Origin: Protaetiibacter mangrovi
GTDB lineage: Bacteria > Actinomycetota > Actinomycetes > Actinomycetales > Microbacteriaceae
Assembly: GCF_024752305.1 (NCBI RefSeq)
Contig: NZ_JANTHX010000002.1
Span: 1 to 42,123, forward strand
Direction of reading: 5' to 3'
DNA length: 42,123 nucleotides
Positions 19,057 to 24,437 of this stretch are shown one piece after another. The notes under the pieces were generated by a model that saw only the letters and a list, made by a program, of their open reading frames with translations, ran no database searches and had not been told where the DNA came from. Each line of letters begins with the position of its first letter. The stretch's first letter is position 1. The position numbers and the translations under genes are program-made.

Positions 19057-19207
19057 TAGACTGACAACGCCCACCGCCCCGCCGGCCAAGCCGGATCAGG
19101 GGAGTCGCGGGGGCGATCTGCACCGAGAATCCGGTCCGGCGCACCGTCGGATCACACGTAGCCGCGACGCATTCGTCGCGATGGGGCGAACGCCCCCGAG
19201 GAGAACG
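19057..19207 (+). promoter_or_regulatory. Promoter -10 and structured 5' leader of the SNF2-type helicase
   Basis: TAGACT (19057-19062) is a likely -10 element without a clear -35. The predicted leader of about 140 nt contains several hairpins: CCGGC/GCCGG around 19080; CGCGACG/CGTCGCG (19163-19169 with 19174-19180, loop CATT); and GGGGC/GCCCC with a GAAC loop (19183-19196). The last ends two bases before the ribosome-binding site GAGGAGA (19198-19204). No known riboswitch consensus was recognised. Confidence 0.4.
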
Positions 19208-21340
19208 ATGGCCACATCCGGCCAGAAGACGCGCTCCGGCGCGAAGTCGTCGTCGGCGAAGGGCGCACAGCAGCGTCGCCGCCCGCACCAGGACGAGACG
19301 GGCATCATCCCCGTGCTCGCGCGCGTCGTGCGCGGCATCGAGAACGCCGCGGAGCGCGGCAAGGTCAACGCCGCCAACCGCGTGCGCTACCGCGTCGTGG
19401 CGGTGCTCGCGCGCGAGGAGCGCGCCCGCATCAAGGGCGACGCGAGCATCACGGATGCCGAGCGCACCAAGGAGCTGACGCGCCTCGACGGCATCGCCAC
19501 GATCATGGCGAAGACGGCGGCGCGCGATGCGAGCCTCATCCAGCTGCTTACCGACACCGCGCCGCTGAGCCCCTCCGCCCAGGAGGTGCGCCGCACCCTG
19601 CTGATCGAGGCGGGCACGCCGCTGGCCCCCGAGGACCTCGTCGTGGTCACCGAGCCCGAGCAGAAGCCCGCCGTCGAGGAGCGCCAGGTGGTGCCGCAGT
19701 CGGTGCGGCAGTACCAGATGTCGAACCCGTTCCTCGCGCCCGACTTCTCCGCGTACCAGACGGCCCAGCCCTCACCGCGCGGCGACCTCGACAGCTGGGA
19801 GCTCATCGAGCCGCTGTTCCGCTCCTTCGAGATCGGAGCCGGCGGGGGAGCGGCCAGCATGGAGCTGCCCGAGGCGCGTTCGCTCGCGACGCCCGGAGGG
19901 CTCGAGCTCATGCGCCACCAGGCGCGGTTCGTCGAGTCGGCCCGGGAGGGCCACCGCAGCTACCTGCTCGCCGACGAGCCGGGCCTCGGCAAGACCGCCC
20001 AGGCGCTGCTCGCGGCGGACGTGGCGAAGGCCTACCCGCTGCTCGTGGTGGTGCCGAACGTCGTCAAGGTGAACTGGGCGCGCGAGGTCGACAAGTGGAC
20101 CCCGCACCGCAGCGCGACCGTCGTGCACGGCGACGGCGACGACATCGACGCCTTCGCCGACGTCGTGATCGTCAACTACGAGGTCCTCGACCGCCACGTC
20201 GCCTGGCTCTCCCGGCGCGGTTTCCGCGGCATGATCGTCGACGAGGCGCACTTCATCAAGAACAAGGAGTCGCAGCGCTCGAAGAACGTGCAGGCGCTGT
20301 CGCGCTCGATCCGTCAGCAGAGCCCGAACCCGCTGCTCGTCGCGCTCACCGGAACCCCGCTCATCAACCAGATCGAGGACTTCCGGATGATCTGGCAGTT
20401 CCTCGGCTGGATCGATGAGAAGAAGCCGATGCCGCGCCTCATGGAGGCCCTCGAGGAGACCGAGCTGACGCCCGTCGACCCGGGGTTCTTCGCCGCCGCC
20501 CGTCGCGCCGTCGTCGGCATGGGGATCGTGCGCCGCAAGAAGGTCGACGTGGCCGCCGACATCCCCGCACGCCGAATCGCCGACATCCCGGTCGAGCTCG
20601 ACGGCGAGGCGGGGCGCTCGATCCGCGAGGCCGAGCGGGCCCTCGTGGCGCGGCTCGTCGAGCGGTTCCGCCGGCTGCGGTCGTCGCGTCCCGACGCGGA
20701 TGCCGCCGATCTGGTGCGTCTCGTCGCGGCCGCGGAGCTCGAGGAGTCGAAGCAGACCCAGTCGGGTGGCGACAACGTCTTCACGATGGTGCGCCGCATC
20801 GGTCAGGCGAAGGCCACGCCCGCGGCGGACTACACCGTCAACCTGGCGCGCAACGTCGGCAAGGTGGTCTTCTTCGCGAAGCACATCGACGTCATGGACG
20901 CCGCGGAGGCGCACTTCGCGAAGGCGGGCCTGCGCACCGTCTCGATCCGCGGGGATCAGACGTCGAAGGCTCGCCAGGCGGAGATCGACGCGTTCCAGAA
21001 CGATCCGGATGTCGCGGTCGCGGTGTGCTCGCTGACGGCTGCGGGCGTGGGGGTGAACCTGCAGGCGGCCTCCAACGTGGTGCTCGCCGAGCTCAGCTGG
21101 ACCAACGCGGAGCAGACCCAGGCGATCGACCGCGTCCACCGGATCGGGCAGGAGCTGCCGGTCACGGCGTGGCGCATCATCGCCGCCCAGACGATCGACG
21201 GGCGCATCGCCGAGCTGATCGACTCGAAGGCGGGCCTCGCGGCCCGTGCGCTCGACGGCGACACGACCGAAGCGACCGAGGGTTCGGTGCAGCTGGAGGC
21301 TCTCGTGGCGCTCCTGAGCGACGCCATCCGCGAGCTCTGA
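19208..21340 (+). CDS. SNF2-family DEAD/DEAH-type ATPase/helicase
   Basis: The 710-residue protein has an N-terminal lysine/arginine-rich tail and helical region (1-200), then a SNF2-type superfamily-2 motor. The motifs are LLADEPGLGKTAQALL (Walker A, Lys near 262), VVPNVVKVNWAREVDKW (motif Ia), IVDEAHFIKN (DEAH, near 344), VALTGTPLINQ (motif III), KVVFFAKHIDVMDA, CSLTAAGVGVNLQAASNVV and QAIDRVHRIGQ (motifs V and VI, near 644). Such proteins translocate on double-stranded DNA and remodel DNA-protein complexes. There is no nuclease or accessory domain. The ATG at 19208 has GAGGAGA upstream. The next feature downstream is an RNA locus, so it is monocistronic. Confidence 0.92.
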   Translation: MATSGQKTRSGAKSSSAKGAQQRRRPHQDETGIIPVLARVVRGIENAAERGKVNAANRVRYRVVAVLAREERARIKGDASITDAERTKELTRLDGIATIMAKTAARDASLIQLLTDTAPLSPSAQEVRRTLLIEAGTPLAPEDLVVVTEPEQKPAVEERQVVPQSVRQYQMSNPFLAPDFSAYQTAQPSPRGDLDSWELIEPLFRSFEIGAGGGAASMELPEARSLATPGGLELMRHQARFVESAREGHRSYLLADEPGLGKTAQALLAADVAKAYPLLVVVPNVVKVNWAREVDKWTPHRSATVVHGDGDDIDAFADVVIVNYEVLDRHVAWLSRRGFRGMIVDEAHFIKNKESQRSKNVQALSRSIRQQSPNPLLVALTGTPLINQIEDFRMIWQFLGWIDEKKPMPRLMEALEETELTPVDPGFFAAARRAVVGMGIVRRKKVDVAADIPARRIADIPVELDGEAGRSIREAERALVARLVERFRRLRSSRPDADAADLVRLVAAAELEESKQTQSGGDNVFTMVRRIGQAKATPAADYTVNLARNVGKVVFFAKHIDVMDAAEAHFAKAGLRTVSIRGDQTSKARQAEIDAFQNDPDVAVAVCSLTAAGVGVNLQAASNVVLAELSWTNAEQTQAIDRVHRIGQELPVTAWRIIAAQTIDGRIAELIDSKAGLAARALDGDTTEATEGSVQLEALVALLSDAIREL

Positions 21341-21342
21341 CG

Positions 21343-21397
21343 CTCAACCATCCAGTGAGACTTCACGTCTTGCGCGCTGTTCACGGCTGAGTATTCT
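21343..21397 (+). promoter_or_regulatory. Promoter and upstream element of the first ncRNA unit
   Basis: TTGCGC (21370-21375) and TATTCT (21392-21397) are 16 bp apart. Six bases upstream of the -35 is a 21-bp element (21343-21363) containing TCAACCATCCAGTGAGACTT. It recurs with one change exactly 428 bp downstream, at the same distance from an equivalent promoter. The duplicated arrangement supports a real, regulated promoter that begins only 2 bp after the helicase stop codon. Confidence 0.65.
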
Positions 21398-21403
21398 CGT
21401 GTT

Positions 21404-21520
21404 CACCAGACGGCGCGGATCCCCTCGGGGGTCGGCCGGAAGGTGACTGAAAGGCCCTCGGGGCTCGACGAACCGCGGTGCTCCGGCACCGGCGGAACGC
21501 GGCGACCGGGGGCCTTTCGT
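21404..21520 (+). ncRNA. Predicted structured small RNA, about 115 nt (first unit)
   Basis: Transcription predicted from the -10 element at 21392-21397 would begin near 21404. The RNA folds into two domains. The first is closed by TCACC/GGTGA (21403-21407 with 21442-21446) and contains GATCCCC/GGGGGTC. The second is a long 3' hairpin (13-bp stem 21449-21461 with 21506-21518, one G-U pair) enclosing CGGTGC/GCACCG with a TCCG loop, and it probably also terminates transcription. No SRP, tmRNA or RNase P signature is present and no convincing reading frame exists. The ends are predicted only. It shares promoter and terminator style with the long RNA at 21832. Confidence 0.55.
21449..21518 (+). 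terminator. 3' hairpin and terminator of the first ncRNA unit
   Basis: GAAAGGCCCTCGG (21449-21461) pairs with CCGGGGGCCTTTC (21506-21518), 13 bp with one T-G wobble. It is followed by GTCGTGTCGG with no T-tract. The 3' arm and following bases (ACCGGGGGCC, then TTCGTCGT) nearly repeat those of the terminator at 22214-22248. Confidence 0.6.
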
Positions 21521-21578
21521 CGTGTCGGCGACCGTACCGAGGGGGCGGATCGTGCCACGCGCGGGCACCGGATGTCAG

Positions 21579-21728
21579 TCCCCCGCACTGGGGGGAGCGT
21601 TCCCATCGAACGCGCACCTATCGTGATGACTGCACTAGTTGGGGGACTAGCAGGCGGCGGTGATCCTGTCATCATCGCGATTCCGATACGGGGGTATGAG
21701 GGATCGCGGACAGCATCACCGCCGCCAG
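21579..21728 (-). ncRNA. Candidate 6C RNA: two adjacent C-loop hairpins
   Basis: Read on the minus strand, an 18-bp stem with a single mismatch (21726-21709 with 21670-21653) encloses a 9-bp stem with one wobble (21708-21700 with 21684-21676) and an ATAC/GTAT tip whose loop is CCCC. Two bases later comes CTAGT-CCCCCA-ACTAG (21650-21635). A TCCCCC/GGGGGA hairpin (21596-21579) may end the transcript. Paired hairpins with C-rich loops define the actinobacterial 6C RNA. The loops here hold four or five C's, not six or more. GTTAAAC (21736-21730) is a possible -10; no -35 was found. This covers the gap between the two plus-strand units. Confidence 0.55.
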
Positions 21729-21767
21729 TGTTTAACGCGGCCGCACGCCGCGGCACGGGCCGGCGGC

Positions 21768-21825
21768 AGTCTCAACCATCTAGTGAGACTTGACCACTTG
21801 TGCCGGTCTGCTCGCTGAGTAATCT
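21768..21825 (+). promoter_or_regulatory. Promoter and upstream inverted repeat of the second ncRNA unit
   Basis: TTGTGC (21798-21803) and TAATCT (21820-21825) are 16 bp apart, as in the first unit. Upstream, AGTCTCA (21768-21774) and TGAGACT (21784-21790) form a perfect 7-bp inverted repeat with a 9-bp spacer. This repeat includes the element shared with 21343-21363 (one C/T difference). The position, six bases upstream of the -35, suits an activator. Confidence 0.65.
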
Positions 21826-21831
21826 CTACTC

Positions 21832-22250
21832 AACCGATGAGGCGCGGACACGAGGTGAACGGAGAGATCCGGGAGCCGGGAGTCCGCAGCCGAAGCGGGG
21901 CGGTGATCTTCTCGAGCCGGTCGGGTCAGCCCGACGGGAGCGGGGAGTGGCCCCAAGGGATCGCGGAACGCGAGTTCCGTCCGTGGGGCAGCACCGGTGG
22001 CGGGATGACGATCCGCAGCCGCAGACGCCGGGCCGTAGGGCCGGGTCGACGCGGAGGCGGAGAGGATTCCGCGGGGCCGCGAGGCGCCGCGGGGGAGATC
22101 CCACCACCGAGGCCGTCTCGGCACGCGCGGTTCGCCGCGCGTGATCGAGCTGCCGTCCGGCTCGGCGAACGCCCGACCCGAGAGCTCGCGGGAGCGGCGG
22201 CCTCACCGACACAGAAGGGCCCCTGGTGTAGCTGACCGGGGGCCCTTCGT
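21832..22250 (+). ncRNA. Predicted long structured RNA, about 420 nt; possible Ms1-like sRNA
   Basis: The predicted RNA runs from the -10 at 21820-21825 to a strong terminator. Its ends pair (GATGAGGC at 21836-21843 with GCCTCACC at 22200-22207, seven of eight pairs). Internal stem-loops include GTCGGG/CCCGAC (21920-21935), CGGAAC-GCGA-GTTCCG with a GNRA loop (21964-21979) inside GCCCCA/TGGGGC (21950-21955 with 21984-21989), and a perfect 9-bp stem capped by TTCG (22122-22143). A plus-strand frame at 21837-22235 is rejected as coding. RNase P, tmRNA and SRP consensus sequences are absent. Being beside a candidate 6C RNA recalls the 6C/Ms1 neighbourhood of other actinobacteria, so an RNA-polymerase-binding Ms1-type sRNA is possible. 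Length exceeds the roughly 300 nt of mycobacterial Ms1. Confidence 0.6.
22214..22248. terminator. Strong terminator of the long ncRNA, also facing the pabC-like gene
   Basis: GAAGGGCCCC plus TGGT (22214-22227) pairs with ACCG plus GGGGCCCTTC (22235-22248). The stem is 14 bp with one T-G wobble and a 7-base loop, followed by GTCGTGGG. It lies 30 bp from the end of the convergent aminotransferase gene and can serve both strands. Confidence 0.75.
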
Positions 22251-22278
22251 CGTGGGTGCCGGCCGTCCGCGGCCCTCG

Positions 22279-23154
22279 TCAGGCGGTACGCGCGTCGAGA
22301 GCCTCGTTGAAACGCTCCGTGAGCTCCGCGTCGATGGCGCGCTCCACGCCCTCCACGGCCCGCACGGGGGCCACATGCCGCACGCTGGAGACGAGCCACG
22401 CGGCGTCCGCGGCGGCGAGGTCGGCGGGGGTGAGCAGCTCGTAGCCCGTGGGGAAGCCGGCCGCCTCGGCCCAGGCGAACAGATCCGCCTGGGTGGTGCC
22501 GGCGAGGATCCCGAGGTCGACGCGGGGCGTGATCAGCCGGGGACCCGTGCGGAGCACCAGGGTCGACGTCGGCCCCTCCAGGAGGTAGCCGTCGCTCGAC
22601 ACGAACAGCACGTCGTCGGCCCCGCGACGGGCGGCTTCGCGGAGCGCCGCGCGGTTCATGGCGTAGCTGAGCGTCTTGGCGCCCGCGAGCAGCCAGGGCG
22701 AGGTCTGCGAGACGTCGTGCCGGAAGCCCCGGTCGAGCAGCACGAGCCGCACCCCCGAGGTCCGGTCCGCCGTGAAGTCGGGGGCGGCCGTGCCGAACAC
22801 CCACCCGGTCGGGACCGACCCGCCCTCGACGCCGCGCGTCAGCACGAACTTGATGGATCCCTCGTCGACGCCCTCCGCGGTGAGGGCGTCGCCCACCGCG
22901 AGCACGGCGGCGCGCCAGACCGCGGGATCCGGCTGGGGCAGTTCCAGCATCCGCGCCGACTGCACGAGGCGCTCCAGGTGCGCCTCGAGGGCCTGCACGT
23001 GGCCGTGCACGAGGCTCGCGGTCTCGAAGACGCCGTCACCGCGCGTGGCGCCCAGGTCGGTGACCCGCAGCAGCGCCGCATCGGCGTCCGCCAGGCGGTG
23101 CCCGGTCGCGGCTCCCGACGCGGGGTCGAACTCGATGAGGGCGACGACGCTCAC
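22279..23154 (-). CDS. Aminotransferase class IV, aminodeoxychorismate lyase-like
   Basis: The 291-residue PLP enzyme has the class IV fold shared by 4-amino-4-deoxychorismate lyase (PabC), branched-chain aminotransferase and D-amino-acid aminotransferase. RVTDLGATRGDGVFETASLV is the typical N-terminal motif, AKTLSYAMNR carries the PLP lysine (Lys160), and YLLEGPTSTLVL holds the conserved Glu. The size and motifs favour a PabC-type lyase making 4-aminobenzoate for folate, but the family is hard to split by eye. The GTG start overlaps the stop of the upstream gene by 4 bp, so the two are coupled. Confidence 0.85.
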   Translation of the reverse strand: MSVVALIEFDPASGAATGHRLADADAALLRVTDLGATRGDGVFETASLVHGHVQALEAHLERLVQSARMLELPQPDPAVWRAAVLAVGDALTAEGVDEGSIKFVLTRGVEGGSVPTGWVFGTAAPDFTADRTSGVRLVLLDRGFRHDVSQTSPWLLAGAKTLSYAMNRAALREAARRGADDVLFVSSDGYLLEGPTSTLVLRTGPRLITPRVDLGILAGTTQADLFAWAEAAGFPTGYELLTPADLAAADAAWLVSSVRHVAPVRAVEGVERAIDAELTERFNEALDARTA

Positions 23155-23534: not shown

Positions 23535-24437
23535 GTGCCCGACAGCCCGCTCACCGCGTCCGCCTACGAGGTGCTGGGCGTCGGCGCGGGTGCGAGCGAC
23601 GCCGAGCTCCGGCGCGCCTACCGACGCCGTCTGCGGGAGACGCATCCCGATGCCGGAGGTCGCGCGGCCGAGTTCCACGCGGTGCAGCGCGCGTGGTCGC
23701 TCGTCGGCACCCCGCAGGCGCGCGCGGCGTACGACTCCGGTTCCGCATCCGGCTCCAGCGAGCAGCCGGTCTACGCGCCCCGGGCGCCGCGCCCGCGGGC
23801 CGATTCCCGCCCGCAGGCGCGCGCCAGCGGACATCCGGGCGGGTGGTACCGCGAACGCTACCTCGCGGAGCTGCGCGAGTGGGCGGGCCGCGGTGTCGCG
23901 GTGCCCGACCCCTACGATCCGGCCCTCATCCGCTCGGCGCCGCACCAGGTCACCCATCTGCTCGCGGCCGCGATCGCCGAGGAGCAGTCGGCCCGCGAGC
24001 TGGCCGGCCTCGGCATCGGCTACACGGTGTGGCACGACGTCGACACCCCGGCCGGCAAGATCGACCACATCGTGCTGGGCGCGAGCGGGCTCTGGGCGCT
24101 GCTCAGCGAGGACTGGGGTGGCGCGGTGCGCGTCAAGGGATCGGAGCTCATCGGGGCGGCTCTCGAGGGTGAGCGGCCGGTCCGCGAGCTGTCGGCCCGT
24201 GCCCGGGTGTTCGGGAGGCATGCGCACGTCAGGTTCTCGGCCATCGGCGTGGTGGTCCCGGACGGCGACGCGCCGGCGCTCGTCGACCTCGGCTCCGTGC
24301 GCGGTTCGCGCGCGCTGCTGATCCCGCAGCCGCAACTCGCCCACGTGGTGCGCAGCGGCATCCCCGGGGTCGGCACCGGCGGCACCGACCTGTTCGAGCT
24401 GCGTTCCCGCGTCCAGGCTGCCGTGCGATTCGTGTGA
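23535..24437 (+). CDS. J-domain protein fused to a NERD-like domain
   Basis: The 300-residue protein starts with a J domain (residues 8-68; AYEVLGVGAGASDAELRRAY, then the HPD motif at 37-39), which stimulates DnaK-type chaperones. After a Pro/Arg-rich linker (70-105), residues from about 150 contain GYTVWHDVDTPAGKIDHIVL followed by GASGLWALLSEDWGGAVRVKG. This matches the core of the nuclease-related NERD domain (Asp before a hydrophobic strand, then W and Lys). The GTG at 23535 lies just after GAAGGG. The next gene overlaps by 4 bp. A J-NERD fusion is unusual; its partner is unknown. Confidence 0.8.
   Translation: MPDSPLTASAYEVLGVGAGASDAELRRAYRRRLRETHPDAGGRAAEFHAVQRAWSLVGTPQARAAYDSGSASGSSEQPVYAPRAPRPRADSRPQARASGHPGGWYRERYLAELREWAGRGVAVPDPYDPALIRSAPHQVTHLLAAAIAEEQSARELAGLGIGYTVWHDVDTPAGKIDHIVLGASGLWALLSEDWGGAVRVKGSELIGAALEGERPVRELSARARVFGRHAHVRFSAIGVVVPDGDAPALVDLGSVRGSRALLIPQPQLAHVVRSGIPGVGTGGTDLFELRSRVQAAVRFV

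Follow-up and report, generated by a model that had tools for sequence, protein, structure and literature searches.

The locus lies in a window of 42,123 nt (the whole stretch of DNA analysed) from Protaetiibacter mangrovi, contig NZ_JANTHX010000002.1. Here, a gap of 938 bp separates an SNF2-type helicase gene from an aminotransferase class IV gene, which the initial annotation had labelled pabC-like. A search for tRNA and tmRNA genes found none. The initial annotation had also proposed that the gap holds two tandem non-coding transcription units whose promoter is duplicated and which share a common control. The flanking genes and the promoter features are as follows.

19181-21340, + strand: SNF2-type helicase gene (Pfam domain)
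21343-21366, + strand: upstream promoter element, copy 1 (direct repeat D1; information content in the 26-site alignment)
21370-21397, + strand: core promoter 1, with -35 TTGCGC at 21370-21375, a 16-bp spacer and -10 TATTCT at 21392-21397 (sequence)
21771-21794, + strand: upstream promoter element, copy 2 (direct repeat D1; assembly-wide 23-mer search)
21798-21825, + strand: core promoter 2, with -35 TTGTGC at 21798-21803, a 16-bp spacer and -10 TAATCT at 21820-21825 (sequence)
22279-23154, - strand: aminotransferase class IV (pabC-like) gene (Pfam domain)

The block CTCAACCATCYAGTGAGACTT is present twice, at 21343-21363 and at 21771-21791, with a single base difference. In both copies the element is followed by six bases, TTGYGC, a 16-bp spacer and TAWTCT, and the copies are offset by 428 bp; this anatomy had been described correctly to the base. 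The composite promoter pattern occurred twice in the window and not once in 100 dinucleotide shuffles. When up to 3 mismatches were allowed, the 21-mer element was found in the window at these two places only, and a related 23-mer had exactly 2 sites in the organism's own assembly (2.98 Mb, 16 contigs). Each promoter is followed by a hairpin ending in GGCCYTTCGTCGT. The nearly identical 3' arms reported for the two hairpins were recovered at 21505-21523 and 22235-22253 (D2), where both units have ACCGGGGGCC, then [TC], then TTCGTCGT, and GGSSCYYTTCGTC occurs in the window at these two places alone (0.06 expected). A sigma-70 consensus scan of the gap called no promoter, a simple terminator scan of the gap called no terminator, and neither hairpin carries a T run. 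Both units are therefore recognized by conservation and comparison and not by a match to a consensus.

Conservation of the promoter in relatives

To describe the promoter in relatives, a profile was built on 26 sites (alignment A1) and used with a match threshold of E <= 0.01. It matched 35 of 398 Microbacteriaceae genomes, from 15 of the 85 sampled genera, with about four chance matches expected; without the weakest three matches (E 0.006-0.01), the figures were 32 genomes and 13 genera. Two promoter sites were found in 15 of the 35 matched genomes. In the order-wide sample, the promoter model matched 2 of 297 genomes, namely, the window's own and one with a weak match (21.5 bits). Earlier similarity searches had given matches in 15 and 16 of 60 genomes, and several of the matches outside the genus spanned only 27 to about 70 nt, with E values of 1e-3 to 1e-5. 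The genome-wide searches with the promoter, middle-element and unit-1 models used stricter filters, by which weak matches are lost. Loci L081 and L098 (genome G072) were identical in sequence and were counted once in A1, A2 and A4.

Within the 26-site alignment, information was highest in the TTG of the -35, invariant in all 26 sites (2.0 bits per column), and in the element (columns 4 to 26; 1.73). The -10 region had 1.24 bits per column, the beginning of the RNA 1.18 and the spacer between the -35 and the -10 only 0.61. The sites were gathered by pattern, so the uniformity inside the element is overstated, but the differences between the parts of the alignment remain meaningful. Two details proposed earlier did not survive the comparison. 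An activator had been suggested to bind a CTCA...TGAG dyad, but both halves were intact in only 5 of the 26 aligned sites; the consensus dyad was no better than shuffles (p about 0.42), and a dyad operator was rejected. The exact offset of 428 bp is no constraint either, since the two elements lay between 202 and 707 bp apart in the 15 loci compared.

The search covered nine genomes of the genus, counting the window's own. All nine have unit 2 with its promoter, and seven have unit 1. G003 and G007 have a single promoter and no unit-1 match, and unit 1 is thus dispensable. A 20-mer of the element matched five viral contigs, in four near-identical stretches and one related stretch. These matches were set aside as chance because the TTG and the -10 were missing at the correct distance. 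An origin of the locus from a phage or plasmid was likewise discarded, as blastn searches of both collections gave no match.

Predicted structures of the RNAs and their probable kinship

The predicted RNAs and their parts, together with a further structured element between them, are as follows.

21404-21524, + strand: unit 1 RNA, about 120 nt, with its putative start set by the spacing from the -10 (folds, alignment A2, covariance model)
21449-21524, + strand: terminator-like hairpin of unit 1, with arms at 21449-21461 and 21506-21518 and the tail GTCGTG (inverted repeat I7; no T run)
21580-21595, + strand: CCCCCGCACTGGGGGG box upstream of the middle element (sequence; similar imperfect boxes in relatives)
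21630-21737, presumably + strand: middle structured element, or unit G (inverted repeat I2; alignment A4)
21832-22252, + strand: unit 2 RNA, about 420 nt, multi-branched, with a putative start (alignment A5)
21835-21843, + strand: 5' arm CGAUGAGGC of the unit 2 closing helix, whose 3' arm GCCUCACCG lies at 22200-22208, with one A-C mismatch (helix 1 of A5)
22177-22192, + strand: small hairpin of unit 2, CCCG-AGAGCUCG-CGGG, with the palindrome GAGCUC in its loop (unit-2 comparison)
22214-22252, + strand: terminator-like hairpin of unit 2, with arms at 22214-22226 and 22235-22248 (inverted repeat I1; helix 17 of A5)

The predicted lengths agree with the approximately 115 and 420 nt given earlier. 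As for the number of units, the two that had been announced are both present, and the third structured element, at about 21630-21737, lies in the gap besides them.

The structures tested were derived from the alignments' own members, namely, the alifold consensus of A5 and the single-sequence folds of L003 (A2), L112 (A3) and L001 (A4); the percentage of paired cells therefore favors them, and shuffles and slid partners are the fairer measures, although sequences that are related can surpass shuffles even when no structure exists. In the predicted fold of unit 1, UCACC (21403-21407) and GGUGA (21442-21446) form a closing stem, followed by ACUGAA and the terminator-like stem. The CACC/GGUG closure leads through a purine-rich internal loop to an inner hairpin, and the long 3' stem comes after it. 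A total of 26 unit-1-type sequences were available, of which 14 entered A2 and 11 entered A3, and L116 was left out. In A2, 89.3% of the cells were paired, and 13 pairs were changed on both sides, a count reached by none of 500 shuffles, which gave 7.5; with slid partners, the count dropped to 3 to 11. The closing stem alone was weaker (78.5% paired), and further pair types gave a less clear result (34 of 500 shuffles as high). All 14 sequences of A2 have a nearly invariant internal loop in the 3' stem, CUCGACGAA opposite AACGCGG, and the hairpin above this loop is highly variable in length. The shorter form of unit 1 found in other genera (A3) had 84.3% of its cells paired and 8 both-sided changes against 4.7, with 5 of 500 shuffles as high. 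A search with the unit-1 model yielded no clear member beyond its 14 training sequences; two extra matches scored 34.6 and 31.5 bits. The same model matched unit 2 weakly (22158-22255, 31.2 bits), and only via the 3' end.

For unit 2, 15 sequences were compared, nine of which, all from the genus, form A5. This alignment has 117 pairs, with 94.9% of the cells paired. Changes on both sides were found at 29 pairs, against 11.9 for the shuffles, of which none among 500 reached that number; with slid partners, the count fell to 3 to 8. The closing helix was paired in 97.2% of the cells, and seven of its eight pairs are invariant in the genus, so that covariation is no test of this helix. The length of unit 2 varied between genomes from about 110 to 526 nt with constant ends, the end in L102 and L109 being read by eye. 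The palindrome GAGCUC was present in 11 of the 15 sequences, in the same hairpin context in all 11 (ten by script and L022 by inspection). The loop was kept even though its closing stem differs, being CCCG/CGGG in the window and CGCG/CGCG in L013. It is possibly a self-kissing loop through which unit 2 would dimerize.

Unit G consists of a short hairpin with the loop UUGGGGGA (21635-21650) and a long hairpin (arms at 21653-21670 and 21709-21726) with the apical sequence AUACGGGGGUAU. It was found at 20 places, 18 of which entered A4; L017 lies near a contig end and L115 is a near-duplicate of L112, and both were left out. In A4, 84.1% of the cells were paired, and there were 13 both-sided changes against 8.6 in shuffles (6 of 500 as high). 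RNAalifold alone gave 18 pairs only and did not predict the short hairpin, which is absent in 3 of the 18 sequences, where GGGGG is retained. A CCCCC-N5-GGGGGG box and a possible -10 lie upstream of the element on the + strand, suggesting that the G-rich strand would be the one transcribed. The CCCCCGCACTGGGGGG box may be a regulator site, and the stretch at 21580-21737, with its two GGGGG loops, is possibly a separate sRNA gene. In the order-wide sample, the middle-element model matched 1 of 297 genomes, the window's own.

We then compared the two units with each other. The initial annotation had described a conserved promoter without conservation of the product. This does not hold, as AC[AU]GAA, sought anywhere in the RNA, was present in 14 of 14 unit-1 and 15 of 15 unit-2 sequences, and conservation extends to the first bases of the RNAs. 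A2 and A5 place the motif at the base of the 3' stem, and inspection by eye of the six other unit-2 sequences gave the same position. Judged from these comparisons, units 1 and 2 are related: their 5' ends are akin, AC[AU]GAA and a GGCC-rich hairpin are common to both, and their middles differ. The homology of the 5' ends rests on a short sequence, because the closing stem of unit 2 is nearly invariant and its pairing is unlike that of unit 1. All 13 helicase-linked second units have the start CAA[CU]CGA, and none of the 13 first units does; with one genome entered twice, these represent 12 distinct genomes from five genera. In a FastTree tree of 30 promoter-plus-start sequences, the first units grouped together and the second units were for the most part separate; the deep nodes are poorly supported, as the sequences are short. 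The duplication that gave units 1 and 2 is thus probably older than the split of the five sampled genera. Both copies have kept their identities and so probably have different jobs. In G289 and G326, the tandem copies are closely alike and lie, by eye, beside a NusA-like gene; there, duplication has probably taken place recently as well.

Taken as a whole, the proposal of tandem non-coding units with a duplicated promoter and likely common control was borne out in relatives, where both the element and covarying stems are present, a check that the initial annotation had itself put forward.

Proposed regulation and function of the tandem units

The gap has a conserved promoter, covarying structure and no conserved open reading frame. 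We consider it likely that the locus belongs to a clade-restricted family of tandem sibling sRNAs that have their own sigma-70-type promoters and answer to one common regulator. The sibling relation rests on the promoters, the 5' starts and the 3' ends, by which the two predicted non-coding RNA genes, side by side, appear related; the promoter, with its presumed regulator site, is common to both. The non-palindromic block ACCYTCAACYATCTAGCGAGACTTSACG abutting the -35 is most simply seen as the site of one DNA-binding regulator, which would set both promoters together from this asymmetric block. The 5' ends would be folded into the closing stem, and AC[AU]GAA with the GGCC-rich 3' hairpin probably protects and ends the RNA. 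Between these ends, unit 1 would have a small hairpin and an elaborated 3' stem, and unit 2 a large multi-branched domain. Given the regulator's signal, the RNAs may act in trans via these divergent middles on mRNAs or a protein. If this is true, an RNA family with an exceptionally conserved promoter is defined, and its regulator could be retrieved with one DNA probe; as the ends are common while the whole RNA measures from about 80 to about 526 nt in different genomes, the part played by the ends could be studied apart from that of the middle.

Tandem sibling pairs are a known kind of organization. In Escherichia coli, the OmrA and OmrB genes are described as lying in tandem, with the first 21 and last 35 nt nearly identical and the middle divergent; both RNAs are under EnvZ/OmpR, measure 82 to 88 nt and need Hfq (PMC4211561). 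The likeness to the window concerns the organization, the common ends and the divergent middle; no relatedness is claimed, the comparison being one of layout and not of sequence. In the window, by contrast, the predicted RNAs measure about 120 and 420 nt and have a third structured element between them. PrrF1 and PrrF2 of Pseudomonas aeruginosa are likewise tandem siblings, first found via Fur sites and terminators (PMC4211561). They are 95% identical to each other, whereas the RNA bodies in the window differ. Read-through of the PrrF genes gives a longer RNA, PrrH. As an RNA family, the pair in the window appears to be new, and no sRNA work on Microbacteriaceae was found in the literature searched, which includes few subscription papers. 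What is unusual in this family is the great length variation between common ends and the third structured element nested within it.

The block could instead be part of an unusually strong constitutive promoter, contacting RNA polymerase in the manner of an UP element, and the RNAs would then be abundant housekeeping RNAs. We regard this as unlikely. The fixed spacing from the block to the -35 (26 of 26 aligned sites) and a dyad symmetry no greater than chance would suit such a contact. UP elements are A+T rich, however, and the block is not; it is sequence-specific over about 23 bp. A contact of this kind would also be expected on other strong promoters, yet the assembly has only two sites within 3 mismatches.

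An equally doubtful alternative to siblings under one regulator is that unit 2 forms an RNA-protein particle or dimerizes through its GAGCUC loop, unit 1 being a reduced relative whose function is different or vestigial. The 117-pair structure kept in nine genomes, the palindromic loop in 11 of 15 unit-2 sequences and the loss of unit 1 in two of the nine genus genomes are all consistent with it. On the other hand, unit 2 is down to about 110 to 230 nt in other genera, and the palindrome is missing from the short forms L008, L096 and L098 and, within the genus, from L007. The large domain is thus not needed family-wide.

A more elaborate proposal adds the middle element, making the gap a three-RNA regulatory cassette in which the siblings, one of them large and self-dimerizing through a GAGCUC kissing loop, flank a G-loop sponge of 6C RNA. 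We hold this to be improbable, more so than the two alternatives above. Like 6C RNA (RF01066), the middle element has a layout of two hairpins with single-base runs in the loops; the runs are of C in 6C RNA and of G, on the + strand, in the middle element. The UUGGGGGA loop could pair with the CCCCCAA of 6C loops. A search for RF01066 in 21300-22300, on both strands and up to E 5, gave no match. A clear 6C-like gene was present in 18 of the 20 genomes with a middle element, with CCCCCAA in at least one loop of each, and G004 and G005 had poor 6C matches only (E 0.73 and 0.52); genomes lacking the middle element were hardly sampled for 6C, so that this co-occurrence proves nothing yet. Three order-level genomes had no 6C match at E <= 0.001. 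No covariation was seen between the middle-element loop and 6C, as the UCGGGGGA variants (G017 and G291) still face CCCCCAA, and the basis of the sponge idea is thus simple complementarity of G and C. Sponges that act on sibling sRNAs are known elsewhere, as with CrfA in Caulobacter (PMC12559287). If the proposal were true, an actinobacterial C-loop sRNA would have its own dedicated antagonist, placed between two RNAs that share a switch of their own.

The 6C-like RNA of the window's own genome was found at G000:C3:169008-169084 (L084 1501-1577) on the - strand, with two UUCCCCCCAA loops and 42.5 bits against a cut-off of 47. All 6C matches in the middle-element genomes scored below the Rfam cut-off, which seems to miss the 6C RNAs of the window's group.

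Against the favored family of regulated siblings, both units might also be RNA polymerase-binding RNAs of the 6S/Ms1 type, which we judge very improbable. Ms1 is also a structured bacterial RNA of a few hundred nucleotides and is described as present in the majority of Actinobacteria (PMC9130861), but the same source gives HAD hydrolase and oxidoreductase genes as its syntenic neighbors, and the flanks here are the SNF2-type helicase and aminotransferase class IV genes. The RNAs of the window have no covariance-model match, and their distribution is narrow (2 of 297 genomes order-wide, one being the window's own). No Rfam family reached its gathering score in the window or in the loci of 12 relatives. 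BjrC68 and istR gave E-value matches at 15.7 and 14.9 bits, far below the Rfam cut-off, and were rejected.

That the gap encodes small proteins is hardly credible, although nine ORFs of 61 to 132 aa lie wholly within it, because none of them is full-length and stop-free (>=90%) in more than two of eight genus relatives and it is the base pairs that are conserved (A5). The coverages were partly lowered by the lack of unit 1 in G003 and G007 and by the split of the G004 locus over two contigs. For the ORF at 21837-22235, none of the eight relatives has 90% or more of the length free of stops: from the ATG at 21837, seven of them stop after 13 to 55 codons, and L006 runs for 177 codons in an alignment that spans just 54% of the window's ORF. 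Small protein genes were thus rejected, the frames being broken in relatives.

Gene neighbors at other loci

The flanks were surveyed at 36 loci bearing a promoter site, mostly over only 1.5 kb and with some loci sharing one genome. Both the helicase and the pabC-like gene were nearby at 13 loci. Eight loci had the helicase only, in L111 as a weak partial match; three had the pabC-like gene but no helicase; one had the DnaJ-NERD gene alone; and at 11 none of the window's flanking genes lay beside the unit. Conversely, among 21 regions of 700 nt downstream of the helicase outside the window's genus, only that of G017 contained the units; G026 and G030 had none there but carried promoter-profile sites elsewhere in the genome. 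A further 14 genomes with a helicase match had no locus and stand outside this count.

In the window, the protein encoded at 23535-24437 has, according to Pfam, a DnaJ domain at its N terminus together with a NERD (nuclease-related) domain. In another genus, a relative adjoins the same sort of sRNA unit (L106). At L101, L105 and L107, also in other genera, the units adjoin what appears by eye to be the end of a nusA gene, and at L101 and L105 they are closely alike tandem copies.
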